Shown: positions 2,817 through 29,846 of the stretch, in pieces
Layout of the letters: the number at the start of each line of letters is the position of its first letter
Position numbering within the stretch: position 1 is the stretch's first letter
Assembly: GCA_021740045.1 (NCBI GenBank)
Contig: JAIPAP010000038.1
Location: 1-35,762 of the forward strand
Direction: 5' to 3'
Length of the DNA: 35,762 nucleotides
From: Bacteroidales bacterium
GTDB lineage: Bacteria; Bacteroidota; Bacteroidia; Bacteroidales; JAIPAP01
Notes under the pieces: generated by a model
Database searches by the model: none
The model's input: only the letters and a program-made list of their open reading frames with translations
Told to the model about the DNA's origin: nothing
Program-made: the position numbers and the translations under genes

Positions 2817-2864
2817 CGCTTCTGGAAATGGAAAAAATTTGTCTAACAAAAAAATTATTGAATT

Positions 2865-4160
2865 ATGAAAAAATCTACGATGAAAAAATTTAAACTGATC
2901 GGTATGCTGCTTGCATTATTGGTTTTTGGGGGTTACTCATACGCTCAAATGCCTGATGCAATCACCATAGAACCGGCAAACGCAACAGCAAATGATACCA
3001 TTATGTTATGGTTGAACACTAATCAAACATGCCCGGAGGGAGATTTGGATACGGCGACAAATATTCACATTCACTCAGGAGCCAATATTGACGGAGCAGA
3101 ATGGCAAAATGTTGTTGACTTTGATTCAACCGATGCTCAGGGTAATTTCATTACACAGTTGACCCAGGAAAACGATTCCATGTGGTACATCGAAATGGTA
3201 CCCGCCGAATTTTACAGCGTACCGGATACAAGCACCATGACAGAGATTGATGCTGTATTTAACAACGGAAGTTGGGATGCCGAAGGGAAAGATTTTGATG
3301 AAGAAGGCAATTGCACTGATTTTTACATTCCTCTAAGCTACAATGTAGAAGTTACATTGAATGTGGATATATCAACTTTTGCGGATACAACCGATTTCGA
3401 TCCTGAAATGAATTCTGTTTATCTGTCAGGTTCATTTTTTGATCCCGTTTGGCCGGCACCTGGTTCTAATCCGGATGCCATGATGACCGATGAGGATGAA
3501 GATATGGTTTATACCTGGACCGGTTCCGTATTAGCCAATGTTGAATATGAATATAAGCACTTTTATGTGCCCGACTCATTGGACGAAAGCTGGAGCTATG
3601 GCGAATGGCAAGGTGAAACCAACCGTTCCGTTACATTCACAGGTCCCGATACGCTTATGGCCAATTGGGGAACCTTTATGCTTGAGTTCTGGGTTACTTC
3701 CGATGGAAGTACCGCTCTTGAAGGCGCTGAAATTACCATTGGAGACATGGTGAAAACATCCGATGCCGAAGGATATGCTTATTTCGACATAGCTCCTGAC
3801 ACCGATGTGGAATACACAATTACACATCCCGACTATCCCGACAAAACAGGTACCGTTTCCATGGGATATGAAGATATGGAGCTGACCATAGATATGTCGA
3901 GCGAAGGTATTGGTGATAATCAAGCCAGCGCATTTAACGTATACCCGAACCCGGTAGATAACGTTCTGTACATCGATGAGATCAAAGATGTGAACAAAAT
4001 TGAGATCTACAACGTGGTTGGGCAACAGGTTAAAACAATTGACAATATCAGCAATGGCACGATCAGCATCAACACTTCAGACCTGAAGGAAGGTGTTTAT
4101 TTCATCACCTTGGTTAACGAAGCTGGTCAGGCATCAACTGCTAAATTCATTAAGGAATAA
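2865..4160 (+). CDS. Secreted T9SS-sorted protein with amylase-partner N-terminal domain
   Basis: This 431-residue protein has a signal peptide (cleavage near SYAQ, about residue 28) and ends in a T9SS type A sorting domain (about 360-431, FNVYPNPVDN, then IYNVVGQQV and GVYFITL), so it should be exported across the outer membrane and anchored or released. Residues 30-155 form a predicted beta-sandwich that resembles residues 25-155 of the downstream GH13 protein (shared ATANDT/PTANDS, H-S/T-G, EW/DW and YSVPD/YGVPD landmarks). Residues 160-270 look like a second beta-rich, possibly carbohydrate-binding, module with many Asp. Residues 275-350 resemble a carboxypeptidase regulatory-like fold. 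No catalytic domain is recognised. The likely job is glycan binding at the surface beside the amylase, which is inference. A good promoter precedes it and a strong terminator follows it. An in-frame ATG at 2880 is an alternative start. Confidence 0.8.
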   Translation: MKKSTMKKFKLIGMLLALLVFGGYSYAQMPDAITIEPANATANDTIMLWLNTNQTCPEGDLDTATNIHIHSGANIDGAEWQNVVDFDSTDAQGNFITQLTQENDSMWYIEMVPAEFYSVPDTSTMTEIDAVFNNGSWDAEGKDFDEEGNCTDFYIPLSYNVEVTLNVDISTFADTTDFDPEMNSVYLSGSFFDPVWPAPGSNPDAMMTDEDEDMVYTWTGSVLANVEYEYKHFYVPDSLDESWSYGEWQGETNRSVTFTGPDTLMANWGTFMLEFWVTSDGSTALEGAEITIGDMVKTSDAEGYAYFDIAPDTDVEYTITHPDYPDKTGTVSMGYEDMELTIDMSSEGIGDNQASAFNVYPNPVDNVLYIDEIKDVNKIEIYNVVGQQVKTIDNISNGTISINTSDLKEGVYFITLVNEAGQASTAKFIKE

Positions 4161-4183
4161 AACCGATATTCCATCTATATGGG

Positions 4184-4218
4184 AACCCGGCTCTTTATCG
4201 AAGGGGCCGGGTTTTTTT
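4184..4218 (+). terminator. Rho-independent terminator after the T9SS protein
   Basis: AACCCGGC at 4184-4191 pairs with GCCGGGTT at 4206-4213, followed by a run of T to 4218. It begins 24 nt after the stop codon of the upstream gene, so the GH13 gene either has its own promoter or depends on read-through. Confidence 0.85.
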
Positions 4219-4321
4219 ATGTGCGATCACATTTTGTATGCAAGAATTTCTGTCCCTGAAGCAACATTCGGATTTTATCAACTGTTATTTCCTGTAAAAC
4301 ATGAACAAAGAGGAAATGACT

Positions 4322-7165
4322 ATGAATTATAAGAAAATCATATCCATCGTACTGATGGCATTCATCAGTATACAAAGCATTAGCTTGTCTGGGCAGGTAA
4401 TCACCACCGATCCTGCTTTGCCCACTGCCAATGATTCGGTCACCATCACATTCGACGCCACCCAGGGTAATGGCGGACTGGAGGGTTACGAAGGTGATGT
4501 ATATGCACACACCGGCGTTATTACCGATGAAAGCAGCAGCTCCTCCGACTGGAAATACGTAAAAACCGGTTGGGGAGAAAACACCCCTGGCACCAGGTTG
4601 GAACGTATCGGCAAAGACCTGTATGAGCTCAATATTACACCTACCATAAGGAATTATTATGGCGTTCCCGATGATGAGCAGATAGTGAAAATGGCTTTTG
4701 TGTTCCGAAGCGCTGAGGAAGTCAACGGCTCATACCTTGAAGGAAAAACCGCCACCGGCGGTGATATTTTCGCCGATGTTTATCAACCTGCTCTTGCTGT
4801 AACATTCCAGAGTCCCCCGGAAGAATCCTTGATTGTTGAAATGAATGATACCATCGATGTATCGGTTGCCGCTTCGTTTGCCGACAGTGTGCTGCTCGCA
4901 GTTAATGAAGAAGTGATTAAACGCGTTGAAGGCAATACCCTTGAAGAAACGCTGATTGCAGGAGAATACGGAAAGTTTTGGGTGAAAGCCATCGCTAAGA
5001 ATGATACCGGCATGGTTGCCGATTCCTTTTATTATTACGTGCGGCAGCCGGTTGAATATATGGCCCGGCCCGAAGGTGTTGAGGATGGCATCAACATCAT
5101 GAATGATACCACCGTGGTGCTCTCACTTTATGCACCTTATAAAGAATACGCTTTTGCCATTGGCGATTTCAGCAACTGGGAAGTAAACAATGATGTTGAA
5201 ATGTATCGCACCCCCGATACACTTCGCTTTTGGGTTGAATTGTCCGGCCTGGACTCCGATGAACTTTATCGCTTTCAGTATTACATCGATGGCGAATTAA
5301 AGGTAAGCGATCCCTATTCCGAATTGATCCTCGACCCGTGGAATGACCAGTACATTTCGGAAGAGACTTTCCCCGACATGCCTGAGTATCCCACCGATAA
5401 AGGTGATGGCATGGTAAGCACCTTTCAGGTCAATAAAGATGAATACCAATGGCAAGTCGAAAATTTTGAGCCTCCGGCAAAAACCGATCTGGTGATTTAT
5501 GAGCTGTTGATCAGGGATTTTGTGGAAAAACATAATTATCAAACGCTGATCGATACCTTGGGATACCTGAAGTCCATGGGTGTTAACGCCATTGAGTTGA
5601 TGCCCGTTAATGAATTCGACGGGAATATCAGTTGGGGCTACAATCCCGCTTACTATTTTGCGCCCGACAAATACTACGGCACCGAAAATAAATTGAAGGA
5701 ATTCATCGATGTGTGCCATGCCAACGGCATAGCCGTAATCCTGGATATGGTGCTGAACCACGTTACCGGCAACAGCACATTTGCCAAGCTTTACTGGGAT
5801 GGTGAAAACAACCGGCCTGCTCTTAACAACCCTTGGCTTAACCCCGAGCCACGGCATCCGTTCAATGTATTTAATGATTTCGATCATGAAAGCGAAGCTA
5901 CCAAATATCTGGTTGACCGGGTAAACGATTTCTGGATTGAGGAATATAAAGTGGATGGCTACCGTTTTGATCTTTCAAAAGGGTTTACCCAAGTAAATTA
6001 TGGTGATGATGTGGGCGAATGGTCGAGCTATGACCAGTCGCGTGTGGATATTTGGAAACGCATCGCCGATTCCATCTGGTCAACCGATGCCGACTCCTAT
6101 ATTATATTGGAACATTTCGCCGACAATTCCGAGGAGACCGAATTATCTAATTACGGGATGATGTTATGGGGGAATTCAAACTTCAATTATAATGAAGCCA
6201 CCATGGGGTATAATTCAGGCGGTAACTCGGATTTTTCATGGTTATCATACCAGGAAAGAGGCTGGAACGATCCTCATGTTGTGGGTTATATGGAAAGCCA
6301 TGATGAAGAGCGCTTGATGTACAAAAACCTGGAATTCGGAAATTCCGCCGATGGTTACGACATTACTCACCTGACCACGGCCCTGGAAAGAATCGAGTTA
6401 GCTGCCAATTTCTTTTTCACTATTCCCGGGCCTAAGATGGTATGGCAGTTTGGAGAACTGGGTTATGACATTTCCATTGAGTTCAACGGCCGCACCGGTG
6501 AAAAGCCCATTAAATGGGAGTATTATGACGATTGGCGCCGAAATTTCCTATACCGCATTTTCTCACAACTTAGTGCGCTTAAGACAGAATACCCGGTATT
6601 CAAAACAACTGATTATCAGCTCTCGCTATCGGGCCCCATGAAGCGAATCAAACTCAATGGCGATGAAATGTCGGTGGTGATCCTGGGCAATTTCGATGTT
6701 GTGGAGGGCACCATTGATCCGGCATTCCAGCATACCGGCGAATGGTATGAATATTACACACGGGAAACCCTTGACGTAAGCGATGTAAATGCCGGGATCT
6801 CCCTTGAACCCGGCGAATACCGGATTTACACCGATAAGGAGCTCCCCAACCCGAACCTGAACACCTCCATTGATGATCCCAACCCTGATAATGACCGCTT
6901 AAAAAGCATGGTATTTCCCAATCCATCAAAGGGAAAAATGTATTTCACTTTTGAAACGGATACCCGTAAGCATGTTTCGCTCACAATATTTAATATGTTG
7001 GGACAGCCGGTTACTACACTTCAATCAGGAATTATGAATGCCGGAAAGCATACCATTAGTTGGAATGGAAAAGGCAAAAACGGAGACAATATGAAACCGG
7101 GTGTTTATTACTATAAGCTTCAGGCAGGTGAAACTACTGAAAAAGGAAAGTTTATCATTCAATAA
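4322..7165 (+). CDS. GH13 alpha-amylase-family glycoside hydrolase with T9SS sorting domain
   Basis: The protein (947 residues from this start) has a signal peptide MNYKKIISIVLMAFISIQS, an N-terminal beta-sandwich shared with the upstream gene, an E-set/CBM48-like domain at about 255-345, a GH13 TIM barrel at about 385-740 and a T9SS type A sorting domain at the C-terminus (FPNPSKGKMYF, then GVYYYKLQAG). GH13 signatures are region I DMVLNHV (475-481), region II GYRFDLSK with nucleophile D550, region III ILEHF with acid/base E597, and region IV YMESHDEE with H660-D661. Region IV has Ser where Asn of NHD is usual. It should cleave or rearrange alpha-glucans at the cell surface; exact specificity (amylase, pullulanase or maltogenic) is open. 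I prefer this ATG because the n-region is basic and GAGGAA lies 8 nt upstream; an ATG at 4301 would add MNKEEMT. Rho-independent terminators lie on both sides. Confidence 0.93.
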   Translation: MNYKKIISIVLMAFISIQSISLSGQVITTDPALPTANDSVTITFDATQGNGGLEGYEGDVYAHTGVITDESSSSSDWKYVKTGWGENTPGTRLERIGKDLYELNITPTIRNYYGVPDDEQIVKMAFVFRSAEEVNGSYLEGKTATGGDIFADVYQPALAVTFQSPPEESLIVEMNDTIDVSVAASFADSVLLAVNEEVIKRVEGNTLEETLIAGEYGKFWVKAIAKNDTGMVADSFYYYVRQPVEYMARPEGVEDGINIMNDTTVVLSLYAPYKEYAFAIGDFSNWEVNNDVEMYRTPDTLRFWVELSGLDSDELYRFQYYIDGELKVSDPYSELILDPWNDQYISEETFPDMPEYPTDKGDGMVSTFQVNKDEYQWQVENFEPPAKTDLVIYELLIRDFVEKHNYQTLIDTLGYLKSMGVNAIELMPVNEFDGNISWGYNPAYYFAPDKYYGTENKLKEFIDVCHANGIAVILDMVLNHVTGNSTFAKLYWDGENNRPALNNPWLNPEPRHPFNVFNDFDHESEATKYLVDRVNDFWIEEYKVDGYRFDLSKGFTQVNYGDDVGEWSSYDQSRVDIWKRIADSIWSTDADSYIILEHFADNSEETELSNYGMMLWGNSNFNYNEATMGYNSGGNSDFSWLSYQERGWNDPHVVGYMESHDEERLMYKNLEFGNSADGYDITHLTTALERIELAANFFFTIPGPKMVWQFGELGYDISIEFNGRTGEKPIKWEYYDDWRRNFLYRIFSQLSALKTEYPVFKTTDYQLSLSGPMKRIKLNGDEMSVVILGNFDVVEGTIDPAFQHTGEWYEYYTRETLDVSDVNAGISLEPGEYRIYTDKELPNPNLNTSIDDPNPDNDRLKSMVFPNPSKGKMYFTFETDTRKHVSLTIFNMLGQPVTTLQSGIMNAGKHTISWNGKGKNGDNMKPGVYYYKLQAGETTEKGKFIIQ

Positions 7166-26416: not shown

Positions 26417-26621
26417 CATCGGCCAGATTCAGCAAGCATTCATAAGGTTTCCAGCACCCCCGGATTCTTATAAGAGGTCTTGAAAAAAGAAAAATCAATA
26501 AATGACACAGGTTTTTGAACAATCCTACACAGTTAGTTGAGCAAACCCCTATCAGGCCTCCATTCTCCAATCTTCAATCCACAATCTACATTCTCCAATC
26601 ACCCTCTCTCTCAATCCCACA
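26417..26621. other. Non-coding stretch between the orphan ORF and the tandem repeat
   Basis: I see no gene, RNA or terminator here. The second half (about 26570-26610) is C/T-rich with near repeats of ATTCTCCAATC, shared with the gap at 20659-20734. Confidence 0.4.
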
Positions 26622-26695
26622 GTCTCTTCGGTCTCTCAGTCTCTCAGTCTCTCAGTCTCTCAGTCTCTTAGTCTCTTAGTCTCTAAAGTCTCTAA
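26622..26695. repeat. 8-bp tandem repeat GTCTCTCA at the hypD stop codon
   Basis: GTCTCTTCG is followed by four GTCTCTCA units (from 26631), two GTCTCTTA units (26663 and 26671), then GTCTCTAAA and GTCTCTAA. The last unit overlaps the hypD stop codon (TAG on the minus strand, 26694-26692). It is a microsatellite-like array without spacers. Confidence 0.85.
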
Positions 26696-29049
26696 CCCCA
26701 CTCCGTCCGCCGGATAATCTCCTCCTGCAGCGCTTCACCAAGGTCATTGAAATAATCGCTGTACCCGGCTACCCTCACAATAAGGTCGCGGTGTTTTTCA
26801 GGATGCTTTTGGGCATCGCGCAAGGTGTCGGCATCAATCACATTGAATTGAATATGGTGCCCGTCCATCCTAAAATAGCTGCGGATCAGGCTGATGAATT
26901 TATCGATATCTTCCTCCGTATTGAAAAATGAGGGCGAAAACTTTTGATTCAGCAAGGTGCCGCCGGTTTTCAGGTGATCGATCTTAGCAGCCGAGCGCAA
27001 CACGGCAGTCGGACCTTTGCGGTCGGCACCCTGCACCGGGCTGATGCCCTCCGAAAGTGGCTCACCGGCCAGGCGGCCATCGGGCATGGCACCGATCACA
27101 CTGCCAAAATATACATGGCTGGTGGTGGGCAGCATATTAATGCGGAAAACACCTCCGCGTGCCGTGGGCCTGCCATTAACCGCTTCATAAAAGGCATTGA
27201 AAACCGCCACCGCATGGCGGTCGGCATAATCATCGTCGTTTCCGTATTTGGGGGTTTCATATACCAGGTCATGGCGCAGCTCACCGGCATCGTCGAAATT
27301 GGCCTTCAAGTGATCGAGCATCTGATGCATAGAAAGGGTTTTTCCATCGAACACATGATAGCGGATGGCGGTGAGGTTATCGGTGATGCTTCCCAGGCCC
27401 ACACCCTGCACATAGCTGGTATTGTAGCGTGCCCCGCCATTGTTGTAATCCTTACCGTTTTCAATGCAATCGTTGATAATTAGCGACAGGAAGGGCACGG
27501 GCATATACTTGGCAAACAAGCGCTCGATGATGTTATTCCCCTCCAGCTTGATATCGATAAAATGCCGGAGCTGTTTCCTGAAGGCTTCAAGCAGCTCATC
27601 CATGTTGCGGAAATCGGCCGGGTTGCCGGTCCTGATACCGGTCATCTTTTGAGTGCGCAGATCATATCCATTGTGCAGGGTAACCTCCAACACCTTGTTC
27701 AGGTTAAAATAGCCTGTGAGGATATAGCTCTCATTGCCAAAGGCGCCGGTCTCGACGCAACCGCTGGCGCCTCCGTTGCGGGCATCCTCCAGGCTTTTAC
27801 CTTGTCGCAGCAACTCCTGCACAATGGCATCGGTGTTGAAATAGGAAGGTTGGCCAAAGCCGGTCTTAGTGATTTGTGCTGTGCGTTTTAAAAACTGCTG
27901 CGGACTTTTCTTACTCACCTGTACCATAGAGCTGGGCTGCAGTATCCGCATCTCTTCGATCACATCCAGTATGAGGTAGGTGAGCTCATTCACCGCATCC
28001 GAACCATCTTCCTTAACCCCGCCCAGGTTGATCAGGGCAAAATCGGTGTAGGTATTGCTTTCCTGTGCCGTTACTCCCACCTTGGGCGGTGAGGGATGAT
28101 TATTGAATTTGATCCAGAAAGCTTGCAGTAGTTCTTTGGCTTTTTCTGCATTTAGTGTCCCTTCTTCAACTTGTTTTTGATAAAACGGGTACAAGTGCTG
28201 ATCGAGGCGACCGGGGTTAAAGCTGTCCCAGGGATTCAGCTCGGTGATTACGCCCAGGTGAATAAACCAGTAATGCTGAAGCGCTTCATGAAAAGTCTCC
28301 GGGGCATTCGCCGGCACCTTACGGCAAATGCGGGCCACCTCATAAAGTTCTTCCTGCCTGGCTTGATCCTCTATTTGCTCAGCTAACTTTTCCAATTCAT
28401 CAGCATGGCGCTGGGCAAAGATCATAATAGCATCGGCGGCAGTATCCATAGCCTCCAGTTCTTCCTTTTGGCCCAAGGCCAGGGGATCATATAGGAAATC
28501 CAAAGCATCCAGGCTTTTGCGGATCTCGTTTTTCAGGTCGAGCATTCCCATTTGGAATAACTTCTTCCCTCCTACTGTATGGCCCGGTGCGCGCTGCTCC
28601 TGAAATTCGGTAAAAACACCCGCTTCAAAAGCATCTTTCCAATGTTGGGGCAAATGATCAAATATCCGCTCGCGCTGCGTTTTACCCTTCCAAAAAGGAA
28701 TGATCACCTGTTCAAAAGCTTCCCGCGTTTTGTCATCCACCTTAAAAGAGACTTTTGGCCGTTCATCCAGTATTTGCAGGTCTTCCAGGCTATGCAGGCA
28801 TATCTCGGGGTAGGTGGGAGTAGCTTTGGGCGCCGGCCCACGCTCACCCACGATTAACTCGCCCGGATTAATGTAAATGGTTTTGTTGGCCATAATATGC
28901 CGGAAGGCTTTAGCACGTTGCATGGGAATTGAATAAGATGCCGTATCCGGCATTTTATAAAATTCGGTTACCATTTTACCCCGTTCGGCCGAAATTCGGT
29001 TGATCGCCTCAGTGCTTTGTTTGCGTAATTGTTGTATACGTTGGTTCAT
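26692..29049 (-). CDS. hypD: Trans-4-hydroxy-L-proline dehydratase (glycyl radical enzyme)
   Basis: The 785-residue protein removes water from trans-4-hydroxy-L-proline to give (S)-1-pyrroline-5-carboxylate, using a glycyl radical. The radical Gly is G762 in RVAGYSDYF and the thiyl Cys is C431 in GGASGCVETG, with E433 two residues on. I compared it from memory with Clostridioides difficile HypD: with a constant offset of 3, all residues I recall as lining its active site are kept: F149, H157, D275, S331, F337, C431, E433, Y447, T642 and G762. Long stretches are near-identical, such as EQRAPGHTV, PTYPEIC and KYGNDDDYAD. This separates it from pyruvate formate-lyase and diol dehydratases. The gene starts 2 nt after hypE ends. 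The pyrroline-5-carboxylate reductase often adjacent in Clostridia is absent here. Oxygen sensitivity implies anaerobic use. Confidence 0.95.
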   Translation of the reverse strand: MNQRIQQLRKQSTEAINRISAERGKMVTEFYKMPDTASYSIPMQRAKAFRHIMANKTIYINPGELIVGERGPAPKATPTYPEICLHSLEDLQILDERPKVSFKVDDKTREAFEQVIIPFWKGKTQRERIFDHLPQHWKDAFEAGVFTEFQEQRAPGHTVGGKKLFQMGMLDLKNEIRKSLDALDFLYDPLALGQKEELEAMDTAADAIMIFAQRHADELEKLAEQIEDQARQEELYEVARICRKVPANAPETFHEALQHYWFIHLGVITELNPWDSFNPGRLDQHLYPFYQKQVEEGTLNAEKAKELLQAFWIKFNNHPSPPKVGVTAQESNTYTDFALINLGGVKEDGSDAVNELTYLILDVIEEMRILQPSSMVQVSKKSPQQFLKRTAQITKTGFGQPSYFNTDAIVQELLRQGKSLEDARNGGASGCVETGAFGNESYILTGYFNLNKVLEVTLHNGYDLRTQKMTGIRTGNPADFRNMDELLEAFRKQLRHFIDIKLEGNNIIERLFAKYMPVPFLSLIINDCIENGKDYNNGGARYNTSYVQGVGLGSITDNLTAIRYHVFDGKTLSMHQMLDHLKANFDDAGELRHDLVYETPKYGNDDDYADRHAVAVFNAFYEAVNGRPTARGGVFRINMLPTTSHVYFGSVIGAMPDGRLAGEPLSEGISPVQGADRKGPTAVLRSAAKIDHLKTGGTLLNQKFSPSFFNTEEDIDKFISLIRSYFRMDGHHIQFNVIDADTLRDAQKHPEKHRDLIVRVAGYSDYFNDLGEALQEEIIRRTEWG

Positions 29050-29051
29050 GC

Positions 29052-29846
29052 TTATGTTCCTGTTTTAACTTCCAGCCCCGCTTTTAAAAATTGCTGCCGT
29101 ATGTGTGTAACATCCACCGGCAGCAGGTTGCGTCCTACATCGAGACTAAAAGGCTTCCCAAAACGGCTATACTTTTCTTTTGCAATGTTGTGATAAGGTA
29201 AAATGTCGATCTTTTTGATGTTCTTAAGCGATGACATCAGTTCGACCATTCCTTTCACATTTTCGGGGCGGGTGGTTATTTCCGGTATTAGCGGAAAGCG
29301 AATGATCACCTCCTGCTCCAGCATATCGAGAAAGCGCAAGTTGCTGATGATCAAATCGTTTTCCACACCCGTGTATTTATAGTGTTCCTCGTTATCGATC
29401 AGTTTAAGGTCATACAGGAAAAGGTCGATCACCTTGGTCAACTGATCGATTTGTTTGGTGCCGGCATACCCACAGGTATCGATGGCTGTGTGGATGCCCC
29501 GTTCCTTGCATTTGTAGGCGAGGTCGTACACAAAATCGAACTGCTCTAAAGGCTCCCCACCCGAAAAGGTCACACCACCGCCGGATTCTTCAAAAAACAC
29601 CACATCTTTTTCGATCTCTTTAAGCAGCTCTTCGGTAGTGGCGATCCATCCTATTTTTTTATCGCGCATAAACACCTTTACACCCAGGCGGTTTTGCTGG
29701 CGGTATTTTTCAATCTCAGCCGACTGGCTCTCCGGGTTATGGCACCATTGGCAGCGCATGGGGCAACCCTTAAAAAAGATGGTCTGCCGGATGCCCGGCC
29801 CATCGTGAACCGCATAATGTTTAATATCGAAAACTACACCCTGCAT
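29052..29846 (-). CDS. hypE: Glycyl radical enzyme activase (radical SAM), partner of HypD
   Basis: The 264-residue radical SAM enzyme installs the glycyl radical on HypD. The start used gives MQGVVFDIKHYAVHDGPGIR, the standard activase N-terminus, then the cluster motif CPMRCQWC (C28, C32, C35) and SGGEP (95-99). An in-frame ATG at 29927 would add 27 residues (MSAGSPEFAAPFASLCINLF and on) that do not fit the family. The activase lacks the ferredoxin-like insert with extra cysteines after the CxxxCxxC motif that many non-PFL activases have; only about 40 residues separate it from the next conserved segment, as in PFL activase. The stop is 2 nt from the hypD start, so the genes form one operon, with the activase first. 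Confidence 0.93.
   Translation of the reverse strand: MQGVVFDIKHYAVHDGPGIRQTIFFKGCPMRCQWCHNPESQSAEIEKYRQQNRLGVKVFMRDKKIGWIATTEELLKEIEKDVVFFEESGGGVTFSGGEPLEQFDFVYDLAYKCKERGIHTAIDTCGYAGTKQIDQLTKVIDLFLYDLKLIDNEEHYKYTGVENDLIISNLRFLDMLEQEVIIRFPLIPEITTRPENVKGMVELMSSLKNIKKIDILPYHNIAKEKYSRFGKPFSLDVGRNLLPVDVTHIRQQFLKAGLEVKTGT

Follow-up and report, generated by a model that had tools for sequence, protein, structure and literature searches.

Activases of glycyl radical enzymes (GREs) use a radical S-adenosylmethionine (SAM) cluster to cleave SAM and install a glycyl radical on the partner enzyme, from which the radical moves to an active-site cysteine. Many of these activases carry a ferredoxin-like insert (PMC6181972, PMC10239695), and the function of auxiliary clusters in GRE activases is called largely unknown in one report (PMC10239695) and unknown in another (PMC11528403), as far as the cited parts of these papers go. 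HypD of C. difficile, a GRE acting on trans-4-hydroxy-L-proline, has been dissected by mutagenesis: in the cited part of that study, the substitutions C434S, E436Q, H160Q, D278N, D339N, S334A, F340A and G765A leave the enzyme inactive, and Y450F and T645A lower its activity (PMC7077986). The presence of HypD in Bacteroides is already stated in a passage of PMC11574389. Here we describe the hypE-hypD pair of a Bacteroidales bacterium (assembly GCA_021740045.1, contig JAIPAP010000038.1), in which the activase HypE has no ferredoxin-like insert. The window, that is the whole stretch of DNA analysed, comprises 35,762 nucleotides and belongs to an assembly of 3.9 Mb with a completeness of 97.03%. 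What appears worthwhile in this locus is the insert-free HypE, which is lineage-wide and has apparently arisen twice, together with evidence for an oxidative route from hydroxyproline that does without the pyrroline-5-carboxylate (P5C) reductase ProC.

The hypE-hypD pair and its short activase

The features on which the argument depends are the following.

26692..29049, minus strand: hypD, the HypD glycyl radical enzyme, assigned by the NF043068 score, the 6VXC match, the active-site residues and the tree
29052..29846, minus strand: hypE (264 aa), the HypD radical-SAM activating enzyme in the short form, which lacks the ferredoxin-like insert
29742..29765, minus strand: the radical-SAM CxxxCxxC motif of HypE (C28, C32, C35), invariant in 28/28
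29652..29711, minus strand: predicted beta-hairpin, HypE residues 46-65, at the place of the 8-Cys insert, from alignment and AlphaFold
27757..27759, minus strand: codon of the thiyl-radical catalytic Cys, C431 (C434 of C. difficile), from the offset-3 numbering; invariant in 79/79
26764..26766, minus strand: codon of the glycyl-radical Gly, G762 (C. difficile G765), at the same offset of 3; invariant

Both open reading frames (ORFs), of 785 aa for hypD and 264 aa for hypE, are complete, and 2 nt separate the stop of hypE from the start of hypD. Starting at an upstream in-frame ATG, HypE would have 291 aa, but its relatives, when aligned, favour the start at 29846. The preliminary description called this a complete pair, which is right for the two intact ORFs; it overlooked that HypE has no ferredoxin-like insert of the kind common in GRE activases. 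Between the CxxxCxxC motif and GGEP, the window HypE has 59 residues and no Cys, against a segment of about 95 residues with 8 Cys in the aligned HypE of Cetobacterium (locus L110) and 9 Cys in that of Parabacteroides distasonis (L115). With 0 Cys it falls outside the two-cluster GRE activases, defined by an 8-Cys insert and two auxiliary [4Fe-4S] clusters. It does possess the CxxxCxxC motif, the GGEP, a predicted fold like that of the pyruvate formate-lyase (PFL) activating enzyme (PFL-AE) and a GRE encoded next to it, as expected of a GRE-activating enzyme. The radical-SAM Cys and the GGE are invariant in all 28 short HypE sequences aligned.

AlphaFold run on these 28 short HypE gave a model with a pLDDT of 92.6 and a pTM of 0.89, where the place of the insert is taken by a hairpin of strands 46-54 and 57-65 (pLDDT about 89-93) devoid of Cys. 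The three closest solved folds are all PFL-AE entries (Foldseek E from 2.0e-24 to 4.7e-24), with 3cb8 reaching Z 34.0 and rmsd 1.7 over 242 aligned residues. On this model, short HypE is predicted to form an intact radical-SAM activase lacking the ferredoxin-like domain. The top NCBIfam model for the window protein is nonetheless that of HypE, NF043069; the PFLA model TIGR02493 gives 209.6 bits and does not reach its cut-off of 231.75. A swapped-in PflA was considered as the source of the short form and rejected: PflA stands apart from HypE in the HypE tree (support 99, starred), and the HypE model outscores the PFLA model (288 against 209.6). No PFL partner was found in the assembly, where HypD is the sole PF02901 protein detected.

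The identity of HypD is equally well marked. Its score against the NCBIfam equivalog NF043068 is 1261.2 bits, over a cut-off of 1100 and far in excess of other GRE families; its top solved structure is the C. difficile enzyme 6VXC (1033 bits, 55.0% identity), with the runner-up at 508. Ten active-site residues had been named at the outset as conserved at a constant offset of 3 (F152, H160, D278, S334, F340, C434, E436, Y450, T645 and G765 in C. difficile numbering), and in a proper alignment all ten are present with no substitution. D339 is likewise kept, making 11 of 11, and every residue tested by mutagenesis in PMC7077986 is found in the window HypD. The same 11 residues are invariant in C. 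difficile and in 79/79 HypD rows accompanied by short HypE, while four other GREs mismatch at 6 to 8 of them. As C434 and G765 are common to all four of these enzymes and H160 and E436 to three, these positions do not mark HypD. A grouping with another GRE class, which would have spoken against the assignment, is not seen: the window HypD lies in a branch supported at 100/100 against two GRE outgroups, whose branches are long. Judged at the level of sequence, the agreement of model, structure and residues is far beyond chance.

The identification of HypD is thus right, and the enzyme is ordinary in this phylum. HypD exceeds the cut-off in 15 of 60 same-order genomes, each of a different family, and in 24 of 395 genomes phylum-wide, own genome included in both counts; being frequent in the order and phylum and already in print, it is no rarity in Bacteroidota. 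An array of the 8-bp unit TCTCTCAG (26607-26693, 10.6 copies, 85% matches) starts at the extreme end of hypD.

Distribution and history of the short form

Relatives were collected by scanning a single genome for each species, which yielded at least 577 stretches encoding some relative. The best 80 of these, with near-full HypD coverage and 65-72% identity, were analysed; 75 carry Bacteroidota titles, and the five others are Ignavibacteria, Chlorobiota, Calditrichota and one unplaced. A complete neighbouring HypE is present in 70 of the 80 loci (69 distinct, since L079 repeats L010) and is short in 70/70, in a set biased by its selection for HypD similarity to the window; in the remaining ten loci HypE is cut, broken or outside the stretch. 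The broader samples are mixed. Among the 15 same-order genomes with HypD over the cut-off, HypE is short in ten, long in three and unscorable in two (L002, L009). The 24 HypD genomes of the phylum draw comprise 15 with short HypE (own included), with segments of about 45 to 63 residues and at most one Cys, eight with 7-10 Cys and one intermediate. Over all 79 distinct short HypE, the segment has no Cys in 56, one in 22 and two in one (L016). The persistence of the short form over a broad clade, together with the invariance of the HypD active site, argues that it is not decay.

The intermediate HypE of the phylum draw (L142, ORF 3846-5342, minus strand) has a reduced segment of 84 residues with 5 Cys, in this recalling E. 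coli PflC, whose segment has four Cys. From its sequence it possibly holds one auxiliary cluster, and is a candidate intermediate between the two-cluster and the cluster-free HypE. In four loci (L069, L074, L098, L068) hypE lies 0.8-5 kb from hypD rather than directly before it; in the first three, EamA and M64 peptidase genes are found on the same side of hypD. Searching phages with a short HypE brought no useful result.

In the HypD tree, all rows with short HypE except Enterococcus form one clade (support 99, starred, with 79 rows, after removal of two other GREs (L020, L021) and of rows no longer than 700 aa; 97/99, starred, with 17 rows). The clade stays single when the phylum draw is added (31 rows, 98, starred), and its sister is then a group of three two-cluster members, L125, L129 and L136 (94, not starred). 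Mapping short and long HypE onto this tree takes two changes, and the starred branches force two: one in the Bacteroidota-wide clade and one in Enterococcus gilvus and E. raffinosus (L107, L108). For C. difficile we assume a long HypE, and L142 was counted as long; two changes remain when both are left unlabelled. A single origin of all short HypE was considered and rejected on HypD, where joining Enterococcus to the short clade gives an AU p of 2.9e-5 (27 rows), though HypE alone does not reject it (AU p 0.204; 46 of the 96 tree rows). Two losses accordingly presuppose that HypE and HypD share one history. Resolution in the HypE tree is weak: the two-cluster HypE of Bacteroidota fall, at low support, among the short ones, and constraining the short Bacteroidota-type HypE to one clade is not rejected (AU p 0.488). 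Loss appears the likelier direction of change, since two-cluster forms sit as the sister and next groups out.

The phylum labels were themselves questioned for one family of the phylum draw (f76), with Shine-Dalgarno-like motifs and Spo0A as markers of a possible place in Firmicutes. Spo0A was found in 0/24, and the HypE segment of one locus labelled 'same phylum' (L137, family f94) is the same as that of a named Ignavibacteria metagenome-assembled genome (MAG; L093), so the labels are taken as right.

Proposed course of the reaction and the fate of P5C

For activity, electron donor and metabolic flux we infer the following course. HypE would bind one [4Fe-4S] cluster and SAM, make the 5'-deoxyadenosyl radical and place a radical on HypD at G762, from where it would pass to C431 and drive the dehydration of hydroxyproline to P5C. 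HypE would do so without the two auxiliary clusters carried by many non-PFL activases, probably receiving an electron from flavodoxin or ferredoxin straight onto the SAM cluster, as PFL-AE does. The cited part of PMC10239695 describes a precedent in IbsAE, whose auxiliary clusters need not be filled for it to activate its partner. P5C, via glutamate semialdehyde, would most likely be oxidised to glutamate, and peptide-derived hydroxyproline would go to central metabolism instead of being used in Stickland proline reduction. We consider this reading as a whole, HypD switched on by a cluster-free HypE with P5C passing to glutamate, to be probable.

Glutamate is the likeliest fate of P5C because no ProC was found and a P5C dehydrogenase (P5CDH) is encoded elsewhere in the genome. 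Searches of the 97%-complete assembly returned no ProC above the cut-off and no P5C reductase (P5CR) dimer domain, a domain present in 12/14 control genomes. Two weak TIGR00112 matches (21.3 bits) belong, by Pfam, to a DUF2520 Rossmann protein and to a protein with 6-phosphogluconate / 3-hydroxyisobutyrate dehydrogenase domains. P5CDH (780 bits, cut-off 613.6) and proline dehydrogenase (ProDH; 257 bits, cut-off 27) are both present on other contigs. Of the two fates suggested in the preliminary description, oxidation to glutamate thus gains support, and reduction by a distant ProC gains none from this 97%-complete assembly.

P5CDH also goes with HypD across the order. When two genomes with split or cut copies (G042, G045) are added to the 15 over the cut-off, giving 17 HypD-positive genomes, P5CDH exceeds its cut-off in 15/17 of them against 19/43 HypD-negative genomes (Fisher p 0.003). 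Counting the two as negative gives 13/15 against 21/45 (p 0.008), and restricting the comparison to the 53 genomes with a completeness of 90% or more gives 15/16 against 15/37 (p 0.0003). Eight of the nine ProC-less HypD-positive genomes have P5CDH. A Muribaculaceae locus (L076) has a P5CDH gene (803 bits) directly upstream of hypE, and locus L044 has a ProDH gene upstream of hypE-hypD, each a single case. On contig C63 of the own genome, a second aldehyde dehydrogenase gene comes after the one for P5CDH, and the two seem to be paired likewise in further genomes of this order. ProC (E below 1e-15) is found in 32/60 same-order genomes, which makes the final step of proline synthesis look patchy in this group.

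The substrate might come from collagen or plant walls, and peptidases recur near hypD in relatives. In a set of 98 hypD loci, where the own genome figures twice and one locus is a duplicate (downstream flanks reach 1.5 kb or more in 60, upstream flanks 2.5 kb or more in 62), S37 peptidases occur in 11, EamA transporters in 11, M64 peptidases in 10, DPP4-like S9 peptidases in nine (two on the opposite strand), C69 dipeptidases in eight (one on the opposite strand), Pro_racemase-family proteins in eight and Xaa-Pro aminopeptidases of M24 in five. These are raw counts of genes anywhere in the stretch examined, with no background rate and with several loci close kin; one member of each family was checked by Pfam and the rest by BLAST, S9 at only 21-31% identity. 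None of these recurrent neighbours adjoins hypED in the window. The own genome does contain, on another contig (C22), an S37 peptidase gene (1498-2844, 237 bits) overlapping an EamA gene (2841-3812) on one strand, and because both families recur near hypED in relatives, the pair may be a detached part of the hydroxyproline pathway. This S37 gene is what a partial search for hydroxyproline peptidases, proposed in the preliminary description, has brought up. No Pro_racemase-family gene was found in the own genome.

Several observations weigh against the reading of a cluster-free activase and an oxidative fate. The window HypE misses the NF043069 cut-off (288.1 bits against 425); the two two-cluster Bacteroidota HypE tested also fall below it (L012 358, L115 321), so that the shortfall does not single out the short form, while that of Cetobacterium passes (452). 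Ordinary proline catabolism uses P5CDH and ProDH as well, P5CDH adjoins hypED in one locus only, and the co-occurrence statistics ignore phylogeny, although the 60 genomes are all from different families. Upstream of hypED in the window lies an elongation factor G gene, and downstream one whose product has PPDK and response-regulator domains (Pfam); neither is a pathway gene. ProC itself shows no significant link with HypD, in presence or absence: it is found in 8/17 HypD-positive against 24/43 HypD-negative genomes at E below 1e-15 (p 0.58) and in 5/17 against 23/43 at the curated cut-off (p 0.15). Genomes of the order often lack ProC whether they have HypD or not, so that its absence has no clear tie to HypD. 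Finally, the 4-HPAD radical is reported to be short-lived without the ferredoxin-like domain (Selvaraj 2014, as cited in the consulted part of PMC10239695).

The alternative with the best claim is that P5C is reduced to proline, as in Clostridia, by a ProC lying in the missing part of the 97%-complete MAG or by an unrecognised reductase. Two weak TIGR00112 matches exist, clostridial hypD is often near proC in the cited parts of PMC7077986 and PMC9044972, and proC adjoins hypD in Cetobacterium. The domain assignments of the weak matches and the absence of the P5CR dimer domain point the other way, as does the lack of co-occurrence of HypD and ProC in the order. As the preliminary description noted, no proC adjoins the window hypD; nor was a ProC-like ORF found near hypD in 23 phylum-draw loci (flanks of about 1.5 kb) or in the Bacteroidota-type loci, the latter examined by phmmer with one Cetobacterium query at E 1e-15, which a divergent ProC could escape. 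We regard reduction to proline as unlikely.

A poor or inactive short HypE, a relic whose HypD is activated by another activase or never, would fit the absence of the 8-Cys insert and the importance of the ferredoxin-like domain in 4-HPAD (Selvaraj 2014, from the part of PMC10239695 cited), and other GRE activases of the genome were not searched for. It agrees poorly with the 28/28 invariance of the radical-SAM Cys and GGE, with the confident model, with the short form in every complete HypE among the best 80 of at least 577 stretches, and with the lack of the domain in PFL-AE and, in the cited part of PMC6325248, GRM5 activases, and we hold it to be very improbable. That HypD uses a different substrate, such as another hydroxyproline isomer or ring analogue, is suggested by the eight relatives with Pro_racemase-family genes (hydroxyproline epimerase or trans-3-hydroxyproline dehydratase-like) near hypD, of which the protein tested has trans-3-hydroxy-L-proline dehydratase as its best model, below cut-off (355 against 540). 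The equivalog score and the retention of all residues of the trans-4-hydroxy-L-proline site tested by mutagenesis (PMC7077986, in the part cited) make this hardly credible. Equally hard to credit is a contaminant contig, with the ProC and P5CDH evidence drawn from a different organism. An estimated contamination of 2.77% speaks for it; against it, the nearest HypD relatives (best 80 of at least 577) are Bacteroidota, and HypD goes together with P5CDH in 8/9 of the ProC-less HypD-positive genomes of the order, as given above.

Comparison with known systems

Within the literature searched, short HypE appears undescribed. Orthologous HypD with the same active site, encoded beside activases with and without clusters, would offer a direct natural test of the cluster role, and the contrast between IbsAE and 4-HPAD over the auxiliary clusters becomes testable with HypE. 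Annotation is affected as well: two Enterococcus megaplasmid records (4989-5768 in both L107 and L108) give such an activase, beside hypD, only the generic names 'radical SAM protein' and '4Fe-4S cluster-binding domain-containing protein'. A survey that looks for proC next to hypD would reach the wrong conclusion on where hydroxyproline goes in Bacteroidota.

C. difficile HypD (6VXC/6VXE; PMC7077986) shares 55% identity, the active-site residues and the predicted reaction with the window HypD. It differs in belonging to a separate clade and, in the cited part of PMC9044972, in being paired with a P5C reductase; the clostridial Stickland hydroxyproline module of proC with hypD is not seen here, with no proC adjacent and none found in the assembly. 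The two-cluster HypE of Cetobacterium and P. distasonis have a hypD partner gene and the same radical-SAM core, and differ in the Cys-rich segment, which is Cys-free in the window. E. coli PflA (3cb8) resembles HypE in fold and in having no auxiliary clusters; its segment is 40 residues long rather than 59, it occupies a separate branch, and HypE neighbours HypD, not PFL. The GRM5 activases, likened here by description only from the cited part of PMC6325248, serve a non-PFL GRE without a ferredoxin-like insert, so non-PFL activases lacking the insert are already known; their partner enzyme is another one, and they belong to a microcompartment. The HypE of E. gilvus and E. raffinosus have no insert and are encoded beside hypD, yet have a shorter segment, and their HypD falls outside the Bacteroidota short-HypE clade. 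To a wider proposal we give about even chances. HypD would work in nature with activases that hold two auxiliary clusters, one or none, the last state having evolved on two occasions; lasting activation of one enzyme for one and the same reaction could then dispense with the ferredoxin-like domain; and the cluster-free system of Bacteroidota would feed an oxidative route from peptide hydroxyproline to glutamate, running counter to the clostridial Stickland use of hydroxyproline.

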